Shown piece after piece: positions 40,233 through 54,027 of a DNA stretch of 64,000 nt (within the stretch, counting starts at the first letter, position 1; each line of letters opens with the position of its first letter). The stretch spans positions 248,001-312,000 of the forward strand of contig NZ_MAXC01000046.1 in assembly GCF_001693485.1 (NCBI RefSeq), read 5' to 3'. The notes under the pieces are model-generated. The model saw only the letters and a list, made by a program, of their open reading frames with translations, was not told where the DNA came from and ran no database searches. The translations under genes were made by a program, and so were the position numbers. This stretch comes from Bradyrhizobium sp. LMTR 3. GTDB lineage: Bacteria; Pseudomonadota; Alphaproteobacteria; Rhizobiales; Xanthobacteraceae.

Positions 40233-40250
40233 ATAGACCGATTACTCCAG
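40233..40250. promoter_or_regulatory. ATAGA-N8-TCTAT operator, site 1 (TetR/DedA)
   Basis: ATAGA-CCGATTAC-TCCAG; in reverse orientation it matches the GTAATC core of the other sites. It lies 14 bases before the TetR start and between divergent genes, fitting autorepression. Confidence 0.6.
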
Positions 40251-40264
40251 TTTAAAGAGTAGGC

Positions 40265-40912
40265 ATGCGAAAACTCGACCCTGTGAAACACGAAAAAAAG
40301 CGTCAGGAAATCCTGGGCGCTGCAATGCGCTGCTTTCTTCGGAGCGGCCTGAAAGGTGCGTCGACGGCTGAAATCTGCGCGGAAGCCGGAATCAGCCCGG
40401 GACACCTGTATCACTACTTTGACACCAGGGATGCGATTGTCGCCGCGTTGATTGAGGGAAGGCTCGAGAAGGTCACGGAACAATTAAAGGCCGGCATCCA
40501 GGGCGCGCGCTCCATCGTAGAGACTCTCGCACCAGAGCTGGAAGGTCAACCGGGCGGGGCGGCCGCTATGGCGCTGATCTTCGATATGATGGCGGAGAGC
40601 AAGCGCAATCCGGAGATGGGCAAGATCGTGAACAGCCACAACCGAGGCATCCGCGAGATCCTTGTGGAGATGCTTCGCTATGGCCAGTCGCGGGGTGAGG
40701 TCGAGGCCAAGTTGGATTTGGAAGTCGCGGCCACGACCATCATGGCGCTTATGCACGGCGCGAAGGTGGTCGCGATGCAAAACCCGAAGGAGGCGGGAAA
40801 GGCCATGCCTGTTCTCCGGCAACTCCTGGTCCACTTGCTTATGACTCCCATGGAAAGCGCGGGAGCAGAACCGCCCCGGGCCAAAAAGACAGTGGCGCGC
40901 GCTAGATCTTAG
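40265..40912 (+). CDS. TetR/AcrR-family transcriptional regulator
   Basis: 215 residues. The N-terminal HTH reads STAEICAEAGISPGHLYHYF, typical of TetR; the C-terminal helical ligand domain is about residues 65-190 (TetR_C-like, FDMMAESKRNPEMGKI). An operator overlaps its own promoter, and six more copies of the same site lie in front of genes up to 49.7 kb. It is therefore the best candidate for the local repressor. The inducer is unknown, but a linked RND pump suggests a hydrophobic compound. Confidence 0.9.
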   Translation: MRKLDPVKHEKKRQEILGAAMRCFLRSGLKGASTAEICAEAGISPGHLYHYFDTRDAIVAALIEGRLEKVTEQLKAGIQGARSIVETLAPELEGQPGGAAAMALIFDMMAESKRNPEMGKIVNSHNRGIREILVEMLRYGQSRGEVEAKLDLEVAATTIMALMHGAKVVAMQNPKEAGKAMPVLRQLLVHLLMTPMESAGAEPPRAKKTVARARS

Positions 40913-41338
40913 TCAAGTCGCCGGCCGGAGGGTTGCAGCGAGCAACCGCGCTCGGAGGTCATACGTTCGAGGGTTCAAGGCACTTTTGGCGAGGAGGACG
41001 CGGGTCCGCGATGTCTCTCTCTCGACTCTTTTTCGACACATATTGAGCACGACGGTTAAAGCACTTTGCGGGACATTCCCGCTCTGCACCTTTCCGTCGA
41101 GGTCGCCTGCGACATCCTAAAATAGTTCGATCAGTCTAATTTTAATTGACAGGCAGGCTCTCGCTCGATAATTGATAGAGCGTATGATCTATCAATGTGA
41201 AGCCGCAACTGCGTCGATTGAAAGAGGGGCCGGCGTGCAGCGGCCCTCTACACCGCGGATGCTTGGACGCGGGATGAGGCCTCGGGCGAGGCCCATAGGC
41301 ACTATCGAAACACGTTCATCTCTCGGGGAGCAAAAGGC
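40913..41338. other. 426-base control region before the hydrolase operon
   Basis: No gene seen. It carries a TTGACA element at 41146-41151 with an A/T-rich -10-like GATAAT at 41167-41172, directly followed by operator site 2. The rest has no recognised feature. Confidence 0.5.
41171..41196. promoter_or_regulatory. operator site 2, perfect 9-bp arms (hydrolase-SDR operon)
   Basis: ATTGATAGA and TCTATCAAT are exact reverse complements around an 8-base centre. This is the most symmetric of the seven sites and overlaps the end of the -10 element, as expected for a repressor. Confidence 0.8.
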
Positions 41339-42532
41339 ATGAGACGCAAGTTCAACGCCGTATTGCTGGCTTGCGTCATCGCGACAGCGCCTCCCGCGAA
41401 AGACGCGGATGCACAGGCCGCACGTACGCAGCAAGAAGTTGCGCCTTTTCAGACCGTCGATTTCGATTGGGTCGACGCCTCCAGGGGGCGCCGGGTTCCT
41501 GCGCGCTTGTACTGGCCGGCCGCTGCGTCGTTCGGGCGGGTGCCGTTGATCGTGTTCTCGCATGGCATCGGGGGTACCAGAAATGGCTACACCTATCTTG
41601 CGAGACAATGGGCTGCGTACGGCATTGCGAGCCTGCATGTCCAGCATACCGGTAGCGACTCCGGGGTTTGGTTCGGCAATCCCTTTGGAGTCGTGAATCG
41701 TCTTCAGACCGCGGCCCAGGATGGCGAAGCGGCCGCGCGGGCCATCGACTTGCGCTTTGCGCTCGACAGCATTCTCTCAAGCGCGAGTCCGTATGCCGCC
41801 GTCATTGACCCCCGCCGGATTGTCGCCGCGGGACATTCGTACGGAGCCAACACCACACTACTGACGGTCGGCGCGCGGGTCATCCGTAACGGACGATGGG
41901 TCCAGTTCCGAGATCCGCGCTATCGGGCCGCGATCGTGATTTCTGCGCCACCGTTCTACGGCGAGAAAAATCTGGCTGGTGTGCTCGCCAATGTTACCGT
42001 TCCGACACTCCACGTAACGTCGACCGAGGATGTCATAAGAATTCCGGGCTTTTACTCGCCTGCCAGCGATCGCGTCGCAATCTTCAACGCCGTCGCCAAT
42101 CCTCGAAAACTGCTGGCCGTGTTTCAAGGTGGGTCTCACAGCATGTTCACTGACCGGCCTCTCGTCGGAGGCCCGGCGCTCAATCCGCGAGTCAAGGAGG
42201 CCACAGCAGAGTTGACGCTCGCTTTCCTTGATTACGCCTTCGCGGGCCAAGTGAACGGTTTGAGCCATTGGCACAGCACTTGGCAGAGCATTCTTGCCGA
42301 GCCCCCGGCAGCGATGATGGCCGCCACGACGCCCGCACAGAAGCTGTTGCAGCCGGCGACGGCAACCATCACCGAAGTAAGCGCCGAGGGGCGGATGGCG
42401 ATCGGCGAGGGCCGGGGTCCCGCTGCAGCGCGCTGTGCGCCGCGCCGCACGGGCTTTCTCATGGGCTCTGCTGCGTGGGCCAGCGGAAGCTGCACGGACC
42501 GGAATGGGACGGTGAACTATGGGCCAGGCTAG
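41339..42532 (+). CDS. exported alpha/beta hydrolase (PAF-acetylhydrolase/dienelactone-hydrolase-like)
   Basis: 397 residues with a weak signal peptide (residues 1-26, ending AQAA). The hydrolase core has the oxyanion segment VFSHGIGG, nucleophile elbow GHSYG at 165-169, an Asp in HVTSTEDVIRIPG and a His in GGSHSMFTD. It is likely a periplasmic esterase or lipase. The C-terminal 90 residues look like a separate segment with a Cys pair. It overlaps the following SDR gene by 14 bases, so both are made together. Confidence 0.8.
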   Translation: MRRKFNAVLLACVIATAPPAKDADAQAARTQQEVAPFQTVDFDWVDASRGRRVPARLYWPAAASFGRVPLIVFSHGIGGTRNGYTYLARQWAAYGIASLHVQHTGSDSGVWFGNPFGVVNRLQTAAQDGEAAARAIDLRFALDSILSSASPYAAVIDPRRIVAAGHSYGANTTLLTVGARVIRNGRWVQFRDPRYRAAIVISAPPFYGEKNLAGVLANVTVPTLHVTSTEDVIRIPGFYSPASDRVAIFNAVANPRKLLAVFQGGSHSMFTDRPLVGGPALNPRVKEATAELTLAFLDYAFAGQVNGLSHWHSTWQSILAEPPAAMMAATTPAQKLLQPATATITEVSAEGRMAIGEGRGPAAARCAPRRTGFLMGSAAWASGSCTDRNGTVNYGPG

Positions 42533-43430
42533 ACCGCAGCGCGTTGTTGTCATGACGGGAGCCACGTCCGGGCTTGGCGCGCACGCGCTCGCGCAAATCG
42601 TCGCCCAGTCCAACACACGCGTGTTCGTAGGAGCCCGCGGCAGCGGACGAACGGTGCCGGAGGGCGTCGAGGTCCTTCCGCTCGAACTCGCGTCGCTCGC
42701 CAACGTCCGCGCATTTGCAGATGCGCTGACACGCCGGCTCGGGGATACCCGGATTAACTTGCTGGTGCTCAATGCCGGCCTCCATGGTTCCAACGCCAAG
42801 CAGCGCAGTGCAGACGGCTATGGTCTGACCTTCGCGGTGAACCACCTTGCCCACTATCTGCTGGCCCAGCTCCTGCTGCCGCATATGGCCGAGCATAGCC
42901 GCCTGGTGATCACCTCGAGCAACATGCACAATCCTCCGTTCAAGCGAATCGCGCCCAAGTCGCTCGACTTGCAGGAATGGGCCCACCCGACCCCGAATGG
43001 TTCTGGCGCGGGCATACGCTCCTACACGGCTTCAAAGCTGTGCAACATGATGACGGCGCTCTCCTTGGCCCGGCTCGACGAGGTGAAGGTCCGCCAGATA
43101 AACGTCGTTGCTTTCAATCCCGGACTTACTGGCGGCGTTGCAGGTCGTGACGCCTCGGCCTTGCAGAGAGCGTTTGTCAAAGCTCTGACGCGTACGGTTT
43201 TTCCTCTCATTGGCCTTTTCCGTCCCGAGTTCGTCATGAACACACCGGAGCACTCCGGAAACATGCTCGCCAACGTAGCTCTTGGTGCAATCAGCCCGCC
43301 GCCTGGCCGAATCTACGTCTCCCTGGTCAAGGGCGAACCGACATTTCCCGATCCCTCGGAATTGGCGCGAAGCCAAGAGGCGCAGGACCGGCTTTGGCGC
43401 GAGAGCGCAGCGATGCTCGGCATCGAATAA
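42519..43430 (+). CDS. short-chain dehydrogenase/reductase
   Basis: 303-residue NAD(P)-dependent SDR. Cofactor motif TGATSGLG is at residues 13-20, LVLNAG follows, and the catalytic Tyr-x-x-x-Lys is YTASK. NHLAHYLLAQLLLPHM is the classical NHL segment. It resembles the retinol-dehydrogenase/protochlorophyllide-reductase-like branch. It overlaps the hydrolase gene by 14 bases and shares its operator-controlled promoter, so a two-step hydrolysis then oxidation or reduction of one substrate is plausible. Confidence 0.9.
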   Translation: MGQARPQRVVVMTGATSGLGAHALAQIVAQSNTRVFVGARGSGRTVPEGVEVLPLELASLANVRAFADALTRRLGDTRINLLVLNAGLHGSNAKQRSADGYGLTFAVNHLAHYLLAQLLLPHMAEHSRLVITSSNMHNPPFKRIAPKSLDLQEWAHPTPNGSGAGIRSYTASKLCNMMTALSLARLDEVKVRQINVVAFNPGLTGGVAGRDASALQRAFVKALTRTVFPLIGLFRPEFVMNTPEHSGNMLANVALGAISPPPGRIYVSLVKGEPTFPDPSELARSQEAQDRLWRESAAMLGIE

Positions 43431-43523
43431 GAGGCGATCCACGAAATGCAGATGGGGCACGCGCCGTGATGATCACGGCAAGAGCCCGGCTGCTTAAGGC
43501 AAATCAATGAAGAAAGGAAAACC

Positions 43524-43874
43524 ATGAAAACACATCTCAGGCTCGCGATGGCCGCCGTCGCAGTCCTTGCCGCAATCCCTGCGCTCGCTGCGGAGCGGTT
43601 CCTGCCAGCACAGAAGGCAACAGCCATGATCGCCGACGGCGCTCCGTGGTCAGCCAATGCGCCGAATGGCAGGAGCTTCAAACTCACCCTCAACAAGGAC
43701 GGCACTGGAGGCGTGCAGGGGACCCTGTTTTCGCAGTCCGTTACGTGGTCGGTCAAAGGCGACGCGATGTGTCTCTCCGGCACTATGATGTCAAAGTGCC
43801 TTCGCTTCCAGGAAGTTGCTGGAGGCTTCCAGGCTTGGGAAGGTGATAAACCTGACCTGAAGCTTAGCCGCTAA
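43524..43874 (+). CDS. small exported protein, unknown
   Basis: 116 residues with a clear signal peptide (RLAMAAVAVLAAIPALAA). The 95-residue mature domain is beta-rich (SFKLTLNKDGTGGVQGTLF, VTWSVKGDAMCLSG) with two Cys residues. The strand pattern is that of small periplasmic proteins of the lipocalin-like DUF type. It follows the SDR by 93 bases in the same direction and is followed by a nested hairpin. No family recognised. Confidence 0.65.
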   Translation: MKTHLRLAMAAVAVLAAIPALAAERFLPAQKATAMIADGAPWSANAPNGRSFKLTLNKDGTGGVQGTLFSQSVTWSVKGDAMCLSGTMMSKCLRFQEVAGGFQAWEGDKPDLKLSR

Positions 43875-43884
43875 GGTTTCGGGA

Positions 43885-43930
43885 TGGGGCGGCAGTGCTC
43901 GTTAGCACGACAGCAGCCTTGGCCGCCCCA
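43885..43930 (+). terminator. nested hairpin after the hydrolase-SDR operon
   Basis: TGGGGCGGC (43885-43893) pairs with GCCGCCCCA (43922-43930), and a GTGCT/AGCAC hairpin lies inside. No T-run follows, so termination is uncertain. Confidence 0.45.
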
Positions 43931-44049
43931 CACACCCTGTCGCCGAAAACAGGGAGTCACGATCTTCCGCGACCGCGCGTCGCTTAGACGCTTCGATTTG
44001 GAAGTGCACGCCAGCTCCTCCTCCTGATCAACAACGTCGAGTTATTCAG

Positions 44050-44679
44050 ATGAAAATTGCGTTTACGAAAAAGGTTCATGAATACGATGACGTTTACTCG
44101 TTCTTCTTCGAAGCGACCGGCGTCAACTACAAGGCTGGGCAGTACACTCACTTGGCAGCCGGCGGGTTATTGGACCTTTCGATCCGCGAGATGTCCTTCG
44201 CTTCAGTTCCCGGGGATCCTGAGGTCATGTTCAGCATGCATGTTGGATCAAAGAGCAAATTCAAGGAAAGGATGAGCGCGCTCAATCCAGGCGACAGGAT
44301 CAGGCTCTTTGGTACAGGCGCGCACGTCGCGCTGCCCGAAACAGGAAGCGGCGGCTTGGTTTTCATAGCGGGCGGCGTGGGGATGACGCCCTTCCGCTCC
44401 ATGATCATTGAAGCACGCAAGAGAGGCAATCATGACATTGCTTTGGTCCAGGTGCAGCGAGGCGACTTCCTGTATCGCAAGGAGCTTGAGCCCCTTGTAT
44501 CGGAGTACAGCCCCGTCTGCCGGGACGCGTTCGCGGGCGCGCTTACGAAGGTAGCAAGGGAGTATGGTGATTCGATCTTCTATGTATGCGGATCAAGCGG
44601 ACTCATCGCGTTCACCGTTATGTCCCTCAAAAAGGCCGGCGTTCAGAAAGACAAAATAAAGATAGAAAGTTACAAGTAG
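44050..44679 (+). CDS. FNR-type FAD/NAD(P)H oxidoreductase
   Basis: 209 residues covering both domains of a ferredoxin-NADP-reductase-like flavoprotein. FAD-binding residues are in KAGQYTHLA and the following IREMSFAS, which replaces the usual RxYS. The NAD(P) motif is AGGVGMTPFRS, and the closing VCGSSGLI is the CG-type segment. There is no iron-sulfur or globin domain, so it is a stand-alone reductase. It is in the same direction as the SDR operon but 175 bases after it. The electron acceptor is unknown. Confidence 0.85.
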   Translation: MKIAFTKKVHEYDDVYSFFFEATGVNYKAGQYTHLAAGGLLDLSIREMSFASVPGDPEVMFSMHVGSKSKFKERMSALNPGDRIRLFGTGAHVALPETGSGGLVFIAGGVGMTPFRSMIIEARKRGNHDIALVQVQRGDFLYRKELEPLVSEYSPVCRDAFAGALTKVAREYGDSIFYVCGSSGLIAFTVMSLKKAGVQKDKIKIESYK

Positions 44680-44722
44680 GATTCGAAAACGCCGGCTCGG
44701 CGCTAGGGAGTGGAAGCAATAC

Positions 44723-45709
44723 TCAGCGCGAGAGGATCAGGCCCTTGCTGGTGATGACCACCCAGCGGCCATCCTGCTTGCGAATGGCATCGACACGGCC
44801 GAGGCCGGGTACGGGGTCGCCAGCATAGACCTCATATATGCCGCCGCGGCTCTCGATAAGTGCGCTGCCGTTGACGACGTCCCGCAATACCCAACCTTCG
44901 ACCGTCGGCAGCCGCGCAATTTCGGGCTTGGGCGAAGTCAAAGGAGAACGTGCGGCGGCGGTGGGTATCAACCCGTTCACGTCCTTTACGGGAGCCGGCG
45001 CGGCAGCAGCCATCGTCGCCGATGCCTGGGCGGCGCGAAGCTTCTCGACGGTTTCGCTGAGCTTTGCGAGTTTCGTGGCAGAGTCGGCCTGCGCTCTCTC
45101 GATCTTGTCCAGCCGGTCGCCGGCCCTGTTGGATCGGTTGATGTCCCCCTCGGCAGCATGTTCGATGCTCCTCTTCAGCGTGGCGATATCGGCATCGATC
45201 CGCGCTGCAAAGCCCTCCAGCGGATGGCCTTTCGCCGGCGCACCCGAAGCGGTCTCCACCGTGATCAACTTTCCAATGCCTGCGGTTGCCAGCGCCCCGC
45301 CGAACGCACCCGCTATTGTGGACGCCACCAGTACGGCGGCAACCGCCCCGAAACGGCGTTTGCCGGGCGATGGCTCTGCTGACCCAGACTTTGCGTCGGC
45401 GCCGAGACGGTCGCCAGGCAAGAGTATCGTCACGTTACCGGAGAAGCGCGGTGCTTCCTGTTTTCCGGCGTCGACCGGGGGAGCTTCGCCCCCTGAGGCC
45501 TCAGGGATTGGCGCTTCAATCTCGATGGTCTCCGGCTCGCGCGCGTCTGGCTTTGGTGAAGTTTCTTCCTGATCGGGCGACACTCTCGTTGTCTCCACGT
45601 CATCTGAGGCAGCCGCCGGCGCGCCGGGTGCCGGCATGCCAGGAGCGGCGGGGCCGGCGCCAAGGATCACAGTTTCACCGCTGGCAGGCTGGGATTGCTG
45701 ATCACTCAT
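44723..45709 (-). CDS. membrane-anchored coiled-coil protein, unknown
   Basis: 328 residues. A long Pro/Glu/Ala-rich cytoplasmic part (1-115) precedes one membrane helix (VAAVLVASTIAGAFGGALAT), a coiled coil (about 165-215) and a compact C-terminal domain (VEGWVLRDVVNGSALIESRG, DPVPGLGRVDAIRKQDGRW). This layout is common in Bradyrhizobium-type genomes and suggests a periplasmic domain tethered to the inner membrane. ATG 45709 has GGAGAG upstream. An operator lies 31 bases before the start. Confidence 0.72.
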   Translation of the reverse strand: MSDQQSQPASGETVILGAGPAAPGMPAPGAPAAASDDVETTRVSPDQEETSPKPDAREPETIEIEAPIPEASGGEAPPVDAGKQEAPRFSGNVTILLPGDRLGADAKSGSAEPSPGKRRFGAVAAVLVASTIAGAFGGALATAGIGKLITVETASGAPAKGHPLEGFAARIDADIATLKRSIEHAAEGDINRSNRAGDRLDKIERAQADSATKLAKLSETVEKLRAAQASATMAAAAPAPVKDVNGLIPTAAARSPLTSPKPEIARLPTVEGWVLRDVVNGSALIESRGGIYEVYAGDPVPGLGRVDAIRKQDGRWVVITSKGLILSR

Positions 45710-45740
45710 CACGACTCTCCGGGAATGAACGTCGCTATTA

Positions 45741-45758
45741 GTAGAGTAATCAATCTAT
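45741..45758. promoter_or_regulatory. operator site 3 (membrane coiled-coil gene)
   Basis: GTAGA-GTAATCAA-TCTAT; four of five bases in the left arm and all five in the right match. It is 31 bases upstream of the minus-strand start. Confidence 0.75.
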
Positions 45759-45809
45759 CTATGGGAAATGTGTTCCTATAACGGCACCTGCCGCGCGCTG
45801 TGCCGACCC

Positions 45810-46433
45810 TCAATAGATCAGGAGAGGCGTTTGCCCGATGTACTGAGGTGACTTGGCCTGCGAAAGCATGAAGTCGGCAACGTCGGTACGTGAAATCTTG
45901 CCGCCGCGGATGCCGGTTAAGTCAGTGAGCGCGCGATAATGCCCCGTGTGCGGGCCATTGGTCAGGAAGCCGGGGCGCACGATGATCCAACGGGAAAGGT
46001 TCGATGTGATGATCCGTTCCTGCTGATCCTTGTCGGCATACATCCTGCGCAGGACAATCGGCATAAATAGGTAGTCGTACAAAAGGCCGCCGTGTCCTCT
46101 GCTATCGCCGCTTCCAATACCGGTGACGGCGATCAGCAATTGTTCGGGCTTCAGCACTTTCGCGAGATTCTCGGCGCAGCGTGAGAACATGGATATCTTC
46201 TGGGTGACGTTGGTCGTGCCCAGGCAATCACAAACGACATCCTGCCCCTCCGCGACCTTCGCGATAGCATCGGGGTCCTGGGCATCGCCTGCGACGATGC
46301 GCAGGTTTGCGTGGCTCAGTGGCATGCGTCGGGGCGTCCGGGCGAGCGCCGTGACGTCATGGCCATCGGCCAGAGCCGCCTGGGCCATCGCCAGCCCAAT
46401 GCCGCGGGTCGCGCCGATGATGGCGATTTTCAT
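45810..46433 (-). CDS. NAD(P)-binding protein of the atypical SDR type
   Basis: 207 residues with the N-terminal Rossmann motif IIGATRGIGLAMAQAAL. The late WIIVRPGFLTNGP is typical of NmrA/SDR_a5-like NAD(P)H-binding proteins. The catalytic Tyr-Lys pair of classical SDRs is not obvious, so it may act as a redox sensor or flavin-type reductase. It sits opposite the DUF3108 gene, with two operators in between, suggesting divergent control. Length is normal. Confidence 0.83.
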   Translation of the reverse strand: MKIAIIGATRGIGLAMAQAALADGHDVTALARTPRRMPLSHANLRIVAGDAQDPDAIAKVAEGQDVVCDCLGTTNVTQKISMFSRCAENLAKVLKPEQLLIAVTGIGSGDSRGHGGLLYDYLFMPIVLRRMYADKDQQERIITSNLSRWIIVRPGFLTNGPHTGHYRALTDLTGIRGGKISRTDVADFMLSQAKSPQYIGQTPLLIY

Positions 46434-46551
46434 GGGATATCTCCTGAATATGTGGGGCGAGCGCCGGCGCCGACCTGGCGGCCCGTACTGTCGCGCCGAT
46501 GTCCTAAGTGGACTGGACTAGTGGTCTGGTCAGAGTGACGCATAGCAAAAA

Positions 46552-46569
46552 ATAGAGCAATCTGTCTAT
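46552..46569. promoter_or_regulatory. operator site 4 (NAD(P)-binding gene side)
   Basis: ATAGA-GCAATCTG-TCTAT; both 5-base arms are perfect. It lies 119 bases upstream of the minus-strand start and 75 bases upstream of the DUF3108 start. Confidence 0.78.
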
Positions 46570-46606
46570 CATTGGCGTTGCCATTCTGTGACCACATTGA
46601 TAATAG

Positions 46607-46624
46607 ATAGAGCGAATACTCTAA
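46607..46624. promoter_or_regulatory. operator site 5 (DUF3108 gene side)
   Basis: ATAGA-GCGAATAC-TCTAA; one mismatch in the right arm. It ends 19 bases before the DUF3108 GTG start, next to its ribosome site. Confidence 0.72.
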
Positions 46625-46643
46625 TTATCAAGGAGGGTCGATC

Positions 46644-47525
46644 GTGGAGTCGGACGTGGCAGGCGGGTGCGACAGGGGAGGGGATTCCGCTCAGTGCAAG
46701 GCCGCCGCGGCGATCCGGTTTGCGGTTACGTTATGCCGGGCCATCGCTATTTTTCTTTTGACCCATGTACCTTCCGCTGCCGCGGACAGCGACATACGGG
46801 CCAGGTATGAGGTCACGCTCGCCGGCCTCACCATTGCGCGGGCCGACTCGGTGATCGCAGTACGTGGCAACACCTATTCGATCCGGGTCAGCTATCGGAC
46901 TTCTGGCGCGGCGCACCTGATGGGATCAGCGACTGGCGAGGCGGTGTCGAGCGGTGTTTACAAGAGTGGCCGCCTCGTTCCGACCCTGTTCAATCTCGAT
47001 CACAAGGGTAGCCGACGGGCGCAAAAGGTTAACCTCGTGATGGCGGATGGTGCCGTCAATGCAATGACCATCGATCCTCCGATCACGGCGGGGTCTCGAG
47101 GCCCCCCGATCACGCCGGAGCATCTGAAGAATATCGTCGATCCCGTGAGCGCTCTCTTGGCACCCGCTCTCACTGCCAACGGGAGGGGAGAAGTCGGCAT
47201 TTGCGATCGTACGGTCCAGATCTTCGACGGCTTGCGCCGATTTAACTTGGTCCTGAAAACGAAAGAAGCGCGCACGATGGCTCAGGGCCCGTATGTGGGG
47301 CCGCTCGTGGGATGTCAGTTGCAGATCGCGCCCATCGCAGGAGAAGTCGCCGGTGAGAGCAGTGCTGAGGGCAGGCCGCCGAACAGAATGCTCGGCGAGA
47401 CGGAATTGACGTTCGGGCTCGCGAATGAGCAGAAGATTTACATCCCTGTCTCGCTGTCGGCAAAGATAGGTTACGCGACACTCGCGGTGCGGCTCACGCA
47501 ATTTACAAACGCGGCATCAAACTAA
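46644..47525 (+). CDS. DUF3108 family exported protein
   Basis: 293 residues from a GTG with AAGGAGGG upstream. An internal hydrophobic segment (FAVTLCRAIAIFLLTHVPSA) serves as signal peptide after a 25-residue leader. The mature protein has the DUF3108 beta-sheet pattern: RARYEVTLAGLTIARADSVI, TSGAAHLMGSATGEAVSSG, and FDGLRRFNLVL. The C-terminal part mentions a target-like fold seen in lipoprotein-carrier-like proteins. Function unknown, probably periplasmic. Confidence 0.75.
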   Translation: MESDVAGGCDRGGDSAQCKAAAAIRFAVTLCRAIAIFLLTHVPSAAADSDIRARYEVTLAGLTIARADSVIAVRGNTYSIRVSYRTSGAAHLMGSATGEAVSSGVYKSGRLVPTLFNLDHKGSRRAQKVNLVMADGAVNAMTIDPPITAGSRGPPITPEHLKNIVDPVSALLAPALTANGRGEVGICDRTVQIFDGLRRFNLVLKTKEARTMAQGPYVGPLVGCQLQIAPIAGEVAGESSAEGRPPNRMLGETELTFGLANEQKIYIPVSLSAKIGYATLAVRLTQFTNAASN

Positions 47526-47572
47526 GCCCGAGGCCGAATCCCGACTCCGGCATGAACAGGCTTGATAAATAG

Positions 47573-47590
47573 ACAGAGCAATCGATCATA
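47573..47590. promoter_or_regulatory. operator site 6 (MBL gene)
   Basis: ACAGA-GCAATCGA-TCATA; each arm departs from the consensus but the GCAATC core is kept. It is 25 bases upstream of the MBL start. Confidence 0.6.
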
Positions 47591-47614
47591 GTTCTATCGA
47601 GAACGGAGCTTCTT

Positions 47615-48743
47615 TTGGACGGTATTACAGACCCCGAGCACCTGCGACCTGCAGCGAGTGAGGACCGCGGCGAGAAGGCGCATGGACTGCCTTCTCAGGA
47701 ATTGCCCGTGCAGGGTGGTTTGCGCGGGGCGTCCGGTGCGTGGCCGCTCTCGGATCACTTTGACGGGCAGCGCTTCCACAATCCTACCCTTCCAAGAGGA
47801 TTTGCTCCGCGCATATCAAGCGCGTGGCGAATGGTTTTTGAAGGGCGCAGTCGGTGGCCTACCTCTGTAGAAAACACGGCAGCACGCGGACTGAACGCGA
47901 TGCGCCATACCGGTGATATCGCCGTAACGTTCGTGAACCACGCGACATTCCTGATTCAGTGCGCCGGTCTGAACATTCTGAGCGATCCGATTTGGTCGCT
48001 CCGTGCAAGCCCGGTCGGGTGGTTCGGCCCGAAACGGGTGAGAGAGCCCGGCTTGGCGCTTGATGATCTGCCGCCGATTGACGTCATTCTCATCAGCCAC
48101 AATCACTACGATCATCTGGATATAGGGACGTTGCGTCGCCTTCACGCGAAGTTCTCCCCGGTTGTGCTGGTGGCGGCCGGCGATCGCGATCTGGTGCGGT
48201 CTGTCGGGTTTACACACGTCCACGAGTTTGACTGGTGGGAAGACTTCGAGATCGGGCCGGGCTGCAAGGTGACCTTTGCGCCGACCCAGCATTTTTCGGC
48301 GCGCGGAATCCGGGATCGTCAAAGAAGTCTATGGGGCAGCTATCTGATCCAGGACGGCGATCGGCGCGTCTATTTTGGCGGCGATAGCGGCTATTCCCAC
48401 CCACTTCTCGGACATCAGGAGAAGACTGGGGTCTCCCGACATCGCGCTGTTGGGGATCGGTTCCTACGAGCCGCGGTGGTTCATGACGCCGATGCATATG
48501 AATCCCGCCGAAGCCGTCCAGGCGCACCTGGATCTTGGCGCGAGCCAAAGCATCGGGATGCATCACGGGACGTTTCAGATGTCCTCCGAAGCGATCGATC
48601 AACCGCTGTTGGACCTGGCAACCGCCATAAAGGCGACAGGCTTAGACGAGGGCGCATTCATCACGCTTCAGGAGGGTGAGACCCGGGTCTATCGCGCGAC
48701 CGAAGTCCAACGGCAGAGACTGTCCGCCTTGAGTCCAGGTTGA
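47615..48743 (+). pseudogene. MBL-fold metallohydrolase (NAPE-PLD-like), frameshifted
   Basis: The first frame has HATFLIQCAGLNILSDPIWS, ISHNHYDHLD (metal motif), APTQHFSARG and YFGGDSGYS, as in N-acyl-phosphatidylethanolamine phospholipase D-like hydrolases. After GYS (near 48398) the family sequence continues one frame away as HFSDIRRRLGSPDIALLGIG, MTPMHMNPAEAV and GMHHGTFQ. An extra base in the CCCACCC run is the likely cause. TTG start with GGAG upstream. If the base is a sequencing error, the gene is intact and of normal length (about 375 aa). Confidence 0.8.
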
Positions 48744-48748
48744 AAGAA

Positions 48749-49606
48749 ATGAAATCCAGTCGAGCGGCGACGCTTATAACAGCATTGTCCCTACTGACGG
48801 CGGGATGCGCGACGGCGCCGCTCGATCGGGCGGGCTCTCTTGCGACCTACGACAATCTGAAAACATCGGACGGTGTTCTGACAAAATCTGTCGTTCACGT
48901 CGACAAGGATGACGTCCTGGCTGCCAAGACAGTGCGGATCGCTGAAACGCGCTTCTCTACCGCGGCGGTGGCCGGAGCTTCATTCACGGAAGATCAGCGC
49001 CGGCTTATGGGCAATGCCGTCGATCGGGCATTGTGTTTTGGACTGAGCGACCGGTTCCAGATCGTCGGCTCTACAGACCCGGCCGACCTGGTCGTCCACG
49101 CGGTTATCACTCGTGCAGCGCCGACGGACCCCACTGCCGCGGGCGCGTCCAAGGTTGTGTCCGTCGTGCCGTCCATTCTCCTTCCTGGCGTGCCGGTGCC
49201 GGTTCCGCGCATTCCAATCGGACTGGGCAGCTTGTCGGTAGAAGCGGAAGCTCGCGATCCACGAGGGAGACAAAAGGCGGCCATAGTTTGGGGGCGCGGC
49301 GCGAATTCCTTCACCAGTGCAGGCAGGGTATCGACCGATGGCGATGCCTATGACCTTGCAGGAGCATTTGGTGCTGACTTCAGCAAATTGCTTGTAACCG
49401 GCAGCACGCCTTTTGGGGCCGGGCCATCTCTGCCATCGGCGCAGAGCCTGAACACAGCTTTGGGTGGAGCGCCCAAACAAGTCGCGTGCGAGGCCTTTGG
49501 CAGGAGCCCAGGCGTTGCTGGAATGATCGGTGAGAGAATCGGGCTTCCGCCGGATTGGACCGACAAGGGTGGCGCTGCGCCACCAGCCCAGGCAGCCAAC
49601 CAGTGA
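48749..49606 (+). CDS. DUF3313-like lipoprotein
   Basis: 285 residues. A lipobox (LLTAGC) follows a signal peptide, so it is a lipid-anchored protein. The mature domain opens with GSLATYDNLKTSDGVLTKS, matching the DUF3313 family of outer-membrane lipoproteins of unknown function; the C-terminal 60 residues (Pro/Gly-rich) are not family-typical. ATG 48749 is used, with a TTG 9 bases before as alternative. It is 6 bases after the damaged MBL gene and likely shares its transcript. Confidence 0.75.
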   Translation: MKSSRAATLITALSLLTAGCATAPLDRAGSLATYDNLKTSDGVLTKSVVHVDKDDVLAAKTVRIAETRFSTAAVAGASFTEDQRRLMGNAVDRALCFGLSDRFQIVGSTDPADLVVHAVITRAAPTDPTAAGASKVVSVVPSILLPGVPVPVPRIPIGLGSLSVEAEARDPRGRQKAAIVWGRGANSFTSAGRVSTDGDAYDLAGAFGADFSKLLVTGSTPFGAGPSLPSAQSLNTALGGAPKQVACEAFGRSPGVAGMIGERIGLPPDWTDKGGAAPPAQAANQ

Positions 49607-49706
49607 GAATCTTGTTGGCCGCTGCGATGCGCCAGCAGGCGGATTTTCCATAGCATCATTAAGCGAGCTGCTGCGGCGCGTTGACTTCAAAGATCGCGTT
49701 CATTAA

Positions 49707-49724
49707 ATAGAGTAATCAATCTAA
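49707..49724. promoter_or_regulatory. operator site 7 (RND efflux operon)
   Basis: ATAGA-GTAATCAA-TCTAA; same centre as site 3, one mismatch in the right arm. It ends 4 bases before the ribosome site of the adaptor gene. Confidence 0.75.
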
Positions 49725-49738
49725 TAAAGGAGAAGCGT

Positions 49739-50953
49739 TTGTCACTGTCCAAGCCGCGCCCGAGGATTGTTGCCGATACGATGGACTCGCCCGCCGCGGC
49801 GGCGACCTTTGCCCGATCGGCTCTTCCTCGCCGTCGCCGGAGCATGACATTTGCAAAACTTGCCGCGTCCGCCATCGCGCTCGTCGCGGCTGCCGCGATG
49901 GTGATTGCCATCGTGCAGCGCCGCGCGTCGCCGGTCACCGTGCCCGTTCAACAGGCTCCCGCTTTGACGGCCACGAGTACAATGCCCCGCGCGCTGAAAT
50001 GGGACATGGCGATAGAAGCGTCGGGCGCAATCGCTGCATGGCAGGAAGCGAGCGTTGGCGCGCAGATCGGCGGTTATCAGCTGTCCGACGTCCTCGTGAA
50101 CGTCGGCGACCAGGTCCGGCAGGGCCAAGTGCTCGCGCGGTTCGATCCCAGCCTGTTGCGCGCCGATGAAGTGCAGCTGAAAGCGCAATACGATCAGGCC
50201 GAAGCCAACCGGCAGCGGGCACAGCGGTTGAGGGGAAGCGACGCGATCAGCGACAAGGATGCCCTGCAGCGTGAGACCGAAGCAAAGACCGCGGAGGCGC
50301 TGCTCGCAGCCAAGCAATTGCAGCTGAAATATACCGAAGTTGTGGCGCCAGATGACGGCGTCATTAGCTCGCGTATGGCGACCCTCGGCGCTGTTGTCCC
50401 GGTTGGCCAGGAACTGTTCCGCCTGATCAGGCAAAACCGGCTTGAATGGCGTGGGGAACTCACGGCGGCACAGCTCACACAAATCACACCGGGGCAGCGC
50501 ATCGCACTGACCTTGCCGAACGGCGGCACCGCCATGGCGACAGTTCGCCAGCTGGCTCCGTCTCTGGACCCGCAGTCGCGTCTTGGCTTGGTCTATGCCG
50601 ATATCGACCCCGGCAGCCGCGCGCGCGCCGGCATGTATGTCAGCGGCAGCGTTATCCTGGGCGAGAGCAAGGCGCGCGTGATCCCTGCTGAAAGCGTAGT
50701 CATTCGAGACGGACGCAGTTACGTGCTCAAGGTCGCGGCGGAAGGAGAATTGAGACCGCGCGTGACGCTTCAGGCGGTGACTACGGGCCGCCGGCAGGGC
50801 AGGGATGTCGAGATCACTTCCGGTATCGCTGGCGATGATCGGGTCATTGTCCAGGGCGCAGGCTTCCTTAAGGACGGCGATATCGTGCGATTGGCCGGGG
50901 ATAGCGACGCCGATCGCGTGTCTGCGACCGCTCAGGATGAAAGCGATCGATGA
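49739..50953 (+). CDS. RND efflux periplasmic adaptor (membrane-fusion protein)
   Basis: 404 residues from TTG 49739, which has AAAGGAGAA just before it. A single membrane helix (residues 38-62) is followed by the classic barrel-sandwich (biotinyl-lipoyl) halves and hairpin: ASVGAQIGGYQLSDVLVNVG, GDQVRQGQVLARFD, then KYTEVVAPDDGVISSRMAT. A beta-barrel and membrane-proximal domain end the protein. It bridges the RND pump and an outer-membrane channel; no TolC-like gene is next to it. The pump gene starts by ATGA overlap. Confidence 0.92.
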   Translation: MSLSKPRPRIVADTMDSPAAAATFARSALPRRRRSMTFAKLAASAIALVAAAAMVIAIVQRRASPVTVPVQQAPALTATSTMPRALKWDMAIEASGAIAAWQEASVGAQIGGYQLSDVLVNVGDQVRQGQVLARFDPSLLRADEVQLKAQYDQAEANRQRAQRLRGSDAISDKDALQRETEAKTAEALLAAKQLQLKYTEVVAPDDGVISSRMATLGAVVPVGQELFRLIRQNRLEWRGELTAAQLTQITPGQRIALTLPNGGTAMATVRQLAPSLDPQSRLGLVYADIDPGSRARAGMYVSGSVILGESKARVIPAESVVIRDGRSYVLKVAAEGELRPRVTLQAVTTGRRQGRDVEITSGIAGDDRVIVQGAGFLKDGDIVRLAGDSDADRVSATAQDESDR

Positions 50954-53900
50954 ATTTCGCAACGTGGTCGATCCGCAATCCGATACCTGCGATCATGCTG
51001 TTCGCAGTTCTGGCGATCGCCGGTCTGTGGGGCTTCCGATCATTGCCGATCCAGAGCTTTCCGGATCTCGATCTGCCCGTTGTCAACGTCACGCTGGTTC
51101 AGCCGGGGGCGGCACCTTCCCAACTGGAGACGGAGGTCGCCCGGAAAGTTGAAGACTCGCTTGCGACGCTCGGCGGCCTCAAGCATCTGCGTACATCGGT
51201 CACAGACGGCCAGGTCGCCATCCGGGTCGAATTCGTGCTTGAAAAGAATCTCTCGGAGGCCTTGATTGAAACCAAGGATGCGGTCGATCGTGTACGGTCA
51301 GACCTGCCCCTGGACGTCCAGCCTCCGATTGTCAGCGCTCAGCGAGCCGGCAGCAATGCGCTGCTGATCTACGCCATATCGTCCACGCGGCTCGACGAAG
51401 AAGCACTGTCATGGTTCGTGGATGACACCGTCGCAAAGATCGTTCTCGGCGTGCCTGGCATCGGCCGCTTTGAGCGGGTCGGCGGCGTGCAGCGGGAAGT
51501 GCGTGTCGAGGTCGATCCCGTGCGTCTCGCCGCCCTCGGCGTCACCGCTGCAGATGTTTCGCGGGCGCTCCGTCAGGTACAGCAGCAATCATCCGGCGGG
51601 CGCGCACAACTGAGTCAGAACGAGCAGGCTGTCCGCACGACCGCAATCGTGCGCCAGGCCTCTGATCTCGCGGCCCTGCCGATCGCAGTTCCCGGCGTGG
51701 CCAAGGTGCGCCTGGATCAGGTAGCCGATGTTCGGGATACTATCGCAGAGCGTACGCAGGTTGCTTTACTGAACGGCAAGCACGTCGTGGGATTTCGGGT
51801 ATATCGCGCCAAGGGTTTCGACGAGGCGGGTATTGCCGATGCCGTCGGGCGAGCGATGGAGCAGCTCCAGAAGACCGACCCGACACTCGATATCAAGCTG
51901 ATATCTGGTTCAATCGACTACACACGCGAGCAGTATGCGGGCTCGATGCACATGCTTTACGAGGGGGCATTGCTGGCGATCCTTGTCGTCTGGTGGTTCC
52001 TACGCGACTGGCGTGCAACGCTCATTTCCGCAGCCGCTCTTCCGCTGTCGATCCTTCCTGCCTTCGCCGCGATGTCGTGGCTGGGATACTCCCTCAATAC
52101 AGTGACGCTTCTCGCGCTCGCGGTGATCGTCGGGATCCTGGTCGATGACGCGATCGTGGAGATCGAGAATATCGAGCGTCACCGCGCGATGGGCAAGCCG
52201 ATGCGCGAGGCGGCAAGTGAGGCCGTGACCGAGATCGGACTCGCAGTTGTTGCAACGACGATCACACTGGTGGTCGTGTTCCTGCCCACAGCCTTGATGA
52301 GCGGCGTGTCAGGTCTGCTGTTCAAACAATTTGGGTGGACTGCCGTGATTGCGGTTCTGGCATCGTTGCTGGTCGCGCGCCTGCTCACACCGATGATGGC
52401 TGCTTATATGCTCTCGTCACGACCATCAACGGAGCACAAGGACGGCCCGTTGATGACAATTTACCTGCGGACCGTTGGCTGGTGCCTTGGTCATCGCAAG
52501 ACAACAGCGTTTGGGACAGTCCTATTCTTCGCCGCGTCGCTTGCCCTAATCCCGCTGATCCCAACTGGATTGATCCCGCCGGCGGACCGCGGCTCGACGA
52601 CGGTGAATATCGAGCTCCCGCCCGGCAGCCCGATGCAAAGCACGCTCAAGGTCGCGGAAGATATCCGCGCGGTACTGAAGGATGTGCCAGGGATTGCCAG
52701 TGTATTCACAACAGTGGGTGACTCGCAGCAACTCGGGCCCGGAACACAGCAGGCAGGGGAGGTGCGCAGAGGCGCCATGGTTCTGATGCTGGCCCCCCGT
52801 GGCGAACGTGAGCCGCAAGTCACGATTGAGAACAACGTTCGACCGAAGCTCCTTGGTATACCCGGCGCACGCTTCGCCATTGGCGGTGGCGGGCTGGGCG
52901 AGAAGATTCAGTTCATTCTCTCGAGCGATAACGTGCAGGCACTTAAGGCGAGCGCCGAGGCGCTCGAGCAGGATCTGCGGGGGGCTGGCGGATTTACGAA
53001 TATCAAGTCCACGGCCAGCCTCGAACGTCCCGAGGTTATTGTCCGCCCGGACCTGCTGCGGGCGGCGGAGCGGGGCGTCACGACCGCCTCGATTGGCGAT
53101 GTCGTTCGGATCGCGACCAGTGGCGATTTCGATACGCAGGTCGCTCGGCTCAATCTTGATAGTCGTCAGGTCTATATCCGCGTGCGTGTAACGGACGCGG
53201 CGCGGCAGAAGATAGATACGCTTGCCAACATGCGGGTGAATGGCCGGAACGGGCCGATCCCATTGTCGAGCGTCGCCGCAATTTCCATGGAAAGCGGCCC
53301 CTCGCAAATCGACCGGTACGACCGCCGCCGCTACGTCACTGTCGAGGCCGATCTCGGCGGGATGGCGCTCGGACCGGCGCAGGCGACCGCGATGGCGTTG
53401 CCCGCAATTAAAGACCTGCCGTCCTCTGTCAGCCTCATCCGGACCGGCGATTCCGAACTCGCGGGAGAACTCGCGACTGGTTTCGGCATGGCAATCATTA
53501 TCGGCATTGTGTCGATGTTTTGCGTGCTCGTGCTACTGTTCAAGGACTTTCTCCAACCCGTCACCATTCTCTCGGCGCTTCCGCTCTCTGTCGGCGGCGC
53601 TTTCGTCGCTCTGCTCATCGCGCGCAGCCAACTCAATCTCCCCGTCATGATCGGCTTCGTGATGCTGATGGGTATTGTCGCGAAAAACTCAATCCTGCTC
53701 GTCGAATATGCCGTGGTCGGAATTCGCGAGCGTGGACTATCCATGCACGACGCGCTGATTGACGCCTGCCACAAGCGCGCCCGCCCCATCGTCATGACCA
53801 CAATCGCGATGATCGCAGGAATGCTGCCGATCGCCCTTGGGTTCGGCGCCGACGCGAGCTTCCGCCAGTCGATGGCAATCGCCGTCATCGGTGGCCTGCT

Positions 53901-54027
53901 AACCTCGACCGCTCTTTCGCTCCTGGTTGTGCCTGTGGCGTTCGTCTACGTCGACCGGTTTGAGCAGTGGATCGTCCGCTTTGGCCGCCGTCTGTCGTAC
54001 CGACCGCAATTCAAAGGGCAGCGCTAG
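50950..54027 (+). CDS. RND efflux transporter permease (AcrB/MdtB-like)
   Basis: 1025 residues, normal for the family, with 12 predicted membrane helices in two sets. TM4 carries the proton-relay aspartate pair in GILVDDAIVEIENIERH. Family landmarks include IPAIMLFAVLAIAGLWGF at the start, PQPPIVSAQRAGSNALLIYA-like porter segments and LMGIVAKNSILLVEYA. It pumps toxic compounds from periplasm or inner membrane to the outside. Translation overlaps the adaptor by 4 bases. Control by the ATAGA operator upstream of the adaptor suggests induction by the pumped compound. Confidence 0.94.
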   Translation: MNFATWSIRNPIPAIMLFAVLAIAGLWGFRSLPIQSFPDLDLPVVNVTLVQPGAAPSQLETEVARKVEDSLATLGGLKHLRTSVTDGQVAIRVEFVLEKNLSEALIETKDAVDRVRSDLPLDVQPPIVSAQRAGSNALLIYAISSTRLDEEALSWFVDDTVAKIVLGVPGIGRFERVGGVQREVRVEVDPVRLAALGVTAADVSRALRQVQQQSSGGRAQLSQNEQAVRTTAIVRQASDLAALPIAVPGVAKVRLDQVADVRDTIAERTQVALLNGKHVVGFRVYRAKGFDEAGIADAVGRAMEQLQKTDPTLDIKLISGSIDYTREQYAGSMHMLYEGALLAILVVWWFLRDWRATLISAAALPLSILPAFAAMSWLGYSLNTVTLLALAVIVGILVDDAIVEIENIERHRAMGKPMREAASEAVTEIGLAVVATTITLVVVFLPTALMSGVSGLLFKQFGWTAVIAVLASLLVARLLTPMMAAYMLSSRPSTEHKDGPLMTIYLRTVGWCLGHRKTTAFGTVLFFAASLALIPLIPTGLIPPADRGSTTVNIELPPGSPMQSTLKVAEDIRAVLKDVPGIASVFTTVGDSQQLGPGTQQAGEVRRGAMVLMLAPRGEREPQVTIENNVRPKLLGIPGARFAIGGGGLGEKIQFILSSDNVQALKASAEALEQDLRGAGGFTNIKSTASLERPEVIVRPDLLRAAERGVTTASIGDVVRIATSGDFDTQVARLNLDSRQVYIRVRVTDAARQKIDTLANMRVNGRNGPIPLSSVAAISMESGPSQIDRYDRRRYVTVEADLGGMALGPAQATAMALPAIKDLPSSVSLIRTGDSELAGELATGFGMAIIIGIVSMFCVLVLLFKDFLQPVTILSALPLSVGGAFVALLIARSQLNLPVMIGFVMLMGIVAKNSILLVEYAVVGIRERGLSMHDALIDACHKRARPIVMTTIAMIAGMLPIALGFGADASFRQSMAIAVIGGLLTSTALSLLVVPVAFVYVDRFEQWIVRFGRRLSYRPQFKGQR

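Follow-up and report, generated by a model that had tools for sequence, protein, structure and literature searches.

A TAGA-N8-TCTA operator and a putative local TetR regulon for efflux and detoxification in Bradyrhizobium sp. LMTR 3

Paired palindromic operators that lie between a tetR gene and its divergently transcribed target are known from the tetR/tetA promoter and the 200-bp rule of the TetR family (PMC3511530). In Bradyrhizobium, the genistein-induced BjG30 locus of B. japonicum USDA110 comprises a resistance-nodulation-division (RND) pump (bll7019-bll7021) and the TetR genes blr7023 and bll7024 (PMC4070704). The same paper names FrrA-FreCAB (blr4322, bll4319-bll4321), a TetR beside a flavonoid-responsive RND pump, which we liken to the present locus by description; blr7984 (PMC5017801) and ExsFGH (PMC10760861) are mentioned for context only. 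Here we describe a 64,000-nucleotide stretch of Bradyrhizobium sp. LMTR 3 (contig NZ_MAXC01000046.1, positions 248,001 to 312,000; hereafter the window), in which a predicted TetR-family gene (40265-40912) is accompanied by candidate operators spread over 9.5 kb. Our best explanation, held with high confidence, is that one TetR repressor controls a compact local efflux and detoxification regulon through TAGA-N8-TCTA operators.

The paired arrangement of tetR/tetA recurs in most of the relatives compared here. In contrast, 6-7 promoters carry operators in the window, and its tetR is not divergent to a target. BjG30 provides a likeness from the same genus, with a local TetR, an RND pump and oxidoreductase-type genes responding together. 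USDA110 was compared as our genome G321, in which 8/8 of the primer sequences tried from PMC4070704 match at the expected place. Membership of BjG30 was ruled out: the TetRs are weakly similar (phmmer 2e-8 and 8e-7 among 80 frames) and the permease is 24% identical. No TAGA-N8-TCTA was found in 39.9 kb at the BjG30 locus of USDA110, and this genome has no match to the window TetR at E<=1e-30. Among the literature matches listed, from a coverage lying mostly outside subscription journals, no title or abstract concerned the motif or the cluster.

Operators in the window

The first-pass annotation had described seven copies of ATAGA-N8-TCTAT in front of genes. A shared motif does stand upstream of genes at the positions it listed, and the perfect 9-bp arms at 41171-41196 are borne out by the sequence. 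However, the pattern is exact at only two positions (41175 and 46552), the other five carrying 1-3 mismatches: one each at 45741, 46607 and 49707, two at 40233 and three at 47573. The last fits better at 47569 (one mismatch), and a site at 41122 (two mismatches) had been overlooked. Exact matches number 2 in the window against 0.02 expected, and places with up to two mismatches 22 against 8.1, the maximum of 100 shuffles being 15; fourteen of the 22 fall outside 40.2-49.8 kb. The motif is better written as the 16-bp palindrome TAGA-N8-TCTA, with TAGAGCGATCGCTCTA, the clearest palindrome before tetR among relatives (in G201), as its fullest form.

An independent matrix was built from 29 sites (23 distinct) in the tetR promoters of 16 of 20 relatives, taken from 20-40 kb around tetR orthologues and including no window sequence. 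Its top eight sites in the 64 kb are 49707, 46607, 46552, 45741, 41175, 41122, 47569 and 40233 (scores 29.7 to 16.3), followed by a next non-overlapping site at 12.1; scores in 50 simulated windows rose no higher than 14.9. Because a matrix from relatives ranks exactly these highest, we count eight sites in the window, all within 40.2-49.7 kb. Simulating 7.9 million positions led us to expect approximately 5 sites per genome that equal 40233 or 47569, and gave none as good as the remaining six. Such sites are more frequent in real DNA than in simulated sequence, with three WTAGA-N8-TCTAW sites (hereafter strict sites) outside the cluster. Spacers of 4-7 and 9-11 gave 0-1 matches per region, and a spacer of 12 gave 1-3, partly from TAGATAGA repeats adjoining true sites.

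The weaker sites were compared with three relatives that carry a similar cluster (G345, G380 and G428). A block similar to 40233 occurs in G345, where it scores 15.6, and in G380, while a CTGGA form in G428 scores 6.6. An ATAGTTC variant of 41122 recurs before the G428 hydrolase gene. Before the gene for the metallo-beta-lactamase-fold (MBL) hydrolase, register 47569 scores 16.7 versus 2.4 for 47573; G345 and G380 have a copy with one mismatch at this position, in register 47573, and none was found in G428.

The 7.83-Mb genome contains 7 strict sites, 4 of them in the cluster, and 9 matches to the reversed control pattern; it is thus the clustering, and not the genome total, that is raised. 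Four places genome-wide match TAGAGYAATCNRTCTA with at most one mismatch, all in the cluster from which this consensus was itself drawn. Seven further places have two mismatches, 1 of them in the cluster, and up to three mismatches the reversed control exceeds the forward pattern (131 and 118 vs 69 and 56). With one mismatch, the loose pattern ATAGA-N8-TCTAT gave 68 forward and 48 control matches genome-wide. Many similar sites at random places had been named as what would refute the original claim; given 68 vs 48, that objection applies to the loose pattern, which cannot settle the matter by itself, but not to the full motif. Of the strict sites elsewhere, C1:713389 is flanked by one frame that reads as a GMC oxidoreductase and another that reads as a CoA-transferase, C3:232100 shares bases with the 3' end of what looks like a coding frame, and no clear gene is seen around C1:867557. 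We take all three to be chance, short of proof.

The TetR clade and its operators in related genomes

The predicted TetR has an N-terminal helix-turn-helix domain (PF00440; 49.7 bits, cutoff 24) and a C-terminal ligand-binding domain of the BetI type (TetR_C_6; 49.8 bits, cutoff 27). Named TetR equivalogs (ScbR, MtrR, FadR, BetI and others) were rejected, as the 17 matching NCBIfam families all fall below their cutoffs, the best being ScbR with 61 bits vs 150. The nearest solved structures by sequence are UidR (PDB 6ayi; E 7e-18) and 6ayh (E 2e-19). UidR acts in glucuronide use; the cluster proteins scanned include no recognisable glucuronidase. The predicted recognition helix ISPGHLYHYF is present in 25/25 aligned clade members and differs in 2/2 outgroup TetRs (G104 and G037), whose promoters lack the site. 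Two wider scans with this TetR were not used further: among named genomes it found 3 distant loci at 26-36% identity, and among plasmids 73 records, with a best identity of 39% among the best 20 rows.

Sites around orthologues in other genomes, proposed earlier as a check, are indeed present, an exact TAGA-N8-TCTA preceding tetR in 16/20 relatives scored. The association was then measured in 265 Bradyrhizobium genomes, with TetR presence taken as a match at E<=1e-30. The clade was found in 44/265 genomes, and a site pair in 34/44 genomes with TetR versus 7/221 without, the reversed control occurring in 2. Fisher's test gave 4.5e-27, uncorrected for relatedness; since the genomes are related, this value overstates their independence. 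All but one of the 34 pairs lie no more than 102 bp from a tetR, using for G345, G380 and G428 one of three pairs and a second tetR. The exception is this genome, where an exact pair stands before the DUF3108 gene, 5.6 kb from tetR. Site sequences vary between genomes while half-sites and spacer stay fixed. When 296 genomes of the family were searched for two TAGA-N8-TCTA sites 28-43 bp apart, such a pair was found in 9/296 (reversed control 3/296). A close orthologue is present in 8/9, with the pair located at tetR in 7 of these 8; the pair in the ninth genome (G090) resembles a chance match. One identical 64-bp stretch that fits the pair pattern and resembles conserved coding sequence was seen in G338, G340, G341, G433, G434, G435 and G533, which lack this TetR.

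In G345, G380 and G428 the pump (85-90% identity), hydrolase, short-chain dehydrogenase (SDR), coiled-coil, DUF3108, MBL and DUF3313 genes are arranged differently within 40 kb. The 39.9-kb regions contain 9, 9 and 11 exact sites, respectively, against approximately 0.2 expected from base composition. The operator is kept in 3/3 relatives before the hydrolase (approximately 350 bp upstream in G345 and G380), coiled-coil, DUF3108 and pump genes, and in 2/3 before the MBL gene. The regulon looks local because strict sites lie mostly in the cluster: 5/6, 5/5 and 7/9 in G345, G380 and G428, and 4/7 here. Gene content differs, with a flavin-reductase-like gene in the clusters of G345 and G380 and the NAD(P)-binding gene only in that of G428; G345 also has an ABM-domain protein, a zinc-type dehydrogenase and an aldo/keto reductase, and G428 a fatty-acid hydroxylase and a patatin-like protein. 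A hydrolase at least 79% identical (79-83%) was found in 4/265 genomes, namely this one and the same three. The large cluster is therefore rare and the tetR-plus-neighbour module commoner. Divergent tetR partners elsewhere are DUF3313, a MATE-like transporter (G123, G135 and G292) or a patatin-like protein (G212), the last two labels being read from translations.

In the other genomes compared, strict sites at or near tetR number 2/2 in G201, 2/5 in G135, 1/2 in G427, 1/3 in G394, 1/6 in G419 (7 kb away) and 0/3 in G024; in USDA110, without a match to this TetR, they number 0/1. One site stands just downstream of tetR in both G427 and G394. Apparent DUF3108 remnants of 42 and 53 residues lie beside orthologous tetR genes without a preceding operator in G024 and G427 (L050 and L112); these are perhaps leftovers of a lost cluster.

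TetR control and alternative explanations

In 132 oriented segments we counted 21 occurrences of TTGAC at a distance of 25-34 bp upstream of TAGA, against 0 for a control word. Judged by eye, many operators adjoin or share bases with an AT-rich hexamer that resembles a -10 element. We propose that a TetR dimer would bind the 16-bp palindrome where it overlaps or immediately follows each promoter's -10 region, with operators paired at two of these positions, 53-55 bp apart (47-56 bp across genomes). With operators at the -10 region downstream of TTGAC, a bound dimer would block polymerase. TetR bound in this way would hold down the hydrolase-SDR, coiled-coil, DUF3108, MBL-DUF3313 and RND pump units until released by a probably hydrophobic compound, upon which pump, oxidoreductases and hydrolases would be induced together. 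The gene set, with its RND pump, SDR, NAD(P)-binding, flavin-reductase-like and hydrolase proteins, suggests a defence against a lipophilic compound. That the TetR binds and represses, that a ligand releases it and that the locus serves in detoxification is what we infer from the sequences.

A number of observations weigh against control by this one TetR. Reversed control matches in G345, G380 and G428 number 14, 8 and 7 versus 6, 5 and 9 strict sites; since the reversed pattern is roughly as common across the genome, the information lies in the clustering alone. Sites 40233 and 47569 are degenerate, and in relatives the 40233 block could be read as an N-terminal extension of the TetR protein. 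The G428 NAD(P)-binding gene has no site within 230 bp. The TetR is present in G024, G394, G419 and G427, yet the 300 bp preceding tetR contain no exact site in any of them, and the 7 pair genomes without TetR all share one identical sequence. G345, G380 and G428 each carry a second clade TetR, which might act there as the main repressor. As to autoregulation, site pairs stand at tetR in relatives, and only the degenerate 40233 precedes tetR here. The original claim of a single switch thus holds as a local TetR regulon, on the co-occurrence with the TetR clade, the operators at most of the same units in three rearranged relatives and the mostly local strict sites, while its extension to tetR itself (40233) and to the NAD(P)-binding gene is weak; these two are the least supported parts.

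The second TetR bears on an alternative in which another regulator, be it a paralogue or an unrelated factor encoded elsewhere, is the main binder and the TetR at 40265-40912 a bystander. In G345, G380 and G428 this paralogue (L105-L110; 42-44% identical to the window TetR, same helix) lies in the cluster with an exact site pair at its promoter, and several genomes with a closer orthologue lack a site before tetR (G024 51%, G394 51%, G427 52%). However, the two paralogues share an identical recognition helix, pair presence tracks the clade, and canonical operators are kept in this genome, where one clade member was found (10 or 11 of 58 first-look candidates scored) and the second was not found among the candidates scored. 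We therefore regard a bystander role as improbable. Some TetR-type proteins, such as AtrA, activate (PMC3511530), and the present TetR might do so or use the sites without repressing; the sites lie by eye at or just after -10 and not upstream of -35, as expected of a blocking repressor, which makes this very unlikely. Chance palindromes or a compositional artefact would agree with the exact fit of only 2 listed sites and with the commonness of the loose pattern, but the matrix ranking, the clade co-occurrence, the concentration in the cluster and the rarity of spacers other than 8 leave this with next to no credibility. Chance is refuted for the strong sites and might account singly for 40233 and 47569, with approximately 5 as good per genome.

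The same operator thus precedes several units at one locus and is tied to the regulator across genomes. Dozens of related genomes have the same switch next to this regulator, so that control of the cluster by a single repressor is very probable; that the TetR at 40265-40912 binds these operators is well supported by these comparisons, short of proof. A defined operator is now available for an uncharacterised TetR clade present in 44/265 Bradyrhizobium genomes searched. It could serve in a reporter to find the inducing compound, and it marks DUF3108, DUF3313 and the coiled-coil protein as probable members of a single induced response. To judge from the reshuffled clusters, operators attached to individual units, and not gene order, may be able to hold a local regulon together. 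More tentatively, and with rather less than even confidence, we suggest a portable modular regulon, in which units, each with its own operator, could be reshuffled, gained or lost and still remain under one TetR code of interchangeable paralogues. Its ancestor would be a divergent tetR-target promoter with a DUF3313, MATE-like or patatin-like partner, and the four-genome cluster would have been assembled as a defence block (efflux, reduction, hydrolysis, envelope proteins) against one lipophilic plant or soil compound.

Features of the locus

Table 1. Predicted operators and genes of the cluster, in window coordinates.
Feature	Position	Strand	Basis
Operator, degenerate (TAGA half kept, other half TCCA), 15 bp before tetR start	40233..40250	-	Score 16.3, rank 8, weakest of eight
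TetR-family repressor (predicted), 215 aa	40265..40912	+	TetR_N and TetR_C_6 above Pfam cutoffs; orthologues with site pairs
Operator not listed earlier, paired with 41175 (53 bp start to start)	41122..41139	+	Score 20.9
Operator, perfect 9-bp arms, 28 bp after TTGACA	41175..41192	+	Exact match, matrix rank
Hydrolase (PAF-acetylhydrolase/PETase-like)	41339..42532	+	Pfam PF03403 above cutoff
Short-chain dehydrogenase, overlaps hydrolase gene	42519..43430	+	Pfam adh_short
Flavohaemoprotein/ferredoxin-reductase-like protein, no site of its own	44050..44679	+	Profile matches; also in G345 and G380
Membrane protein, predicted-looking coiled coil	44723..45712	-	No Pfam or NCBIfam family
Operator before coiled-coil gene	45741..45758	-	Score 22.3; exact in G345 and G380, 1 mismatch in G428
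NAD(P)H-binding protein	45810..46433	-	NAD_binding_10
Operator, left pair member, divergent NAD(P)-binding/DUF3108 promoter region	46552..46569	.	Exact match, matrix rank
Operator, right pair member (55 bp start to start), before DUF3108	46607..46624	.	Orthologous sites in 3/3 cluster relatives
DUF3108 protein	46644..47525	+	Pfam
Operator, composite and degenerate, before MBL gene (overlapping registers 47569, 47573)	47569..47590	+	Matrix
MBL-fold hydrolase	47615..48679	+	Pfam; frame broken relative to G345 and G380
DUF3313 lipoprotein-like protein	48740..49606	+	Pfam; divergent tetR neighbour in many relatives
Operator before RND pump genes, 15 bp from start codon	49707..49724	+	Best window score 29.7; exact in 3/3 cluster relatives
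RND pump membrane-fusion protein (HlyD type)	49739..50953	+	Pfam
RND pump permease	50950..54027	+	NCBIfam RND_permease_2, below cutoff but E 1e-194

The flavohaemoprotein/ferredoxin-reductase-like gene is likely transcribed from the upstream operon. The MBL gene is split in the window (47615-48679 and 48375-48743) and forms one frame in G345 and G380 (379 and 371 aa), a difference that reflects either a sequencing error or a damaged gene. A second hydrolase copy, 66% identical, lies at C1:402255-403226 in this genome, with similar copies in genomes without this TetR. A 406-aa open frame at 49742-50962 (-), antisense to the membrane-fusion gene, is probably a by-product of high G+C. A small secreted-looking protein without a Pfam family is encoded at 43524-43874, with no site before it here; its counterparts in G345, G380 and G428 share 75% identity and occupy other positions in the region, close to sites.

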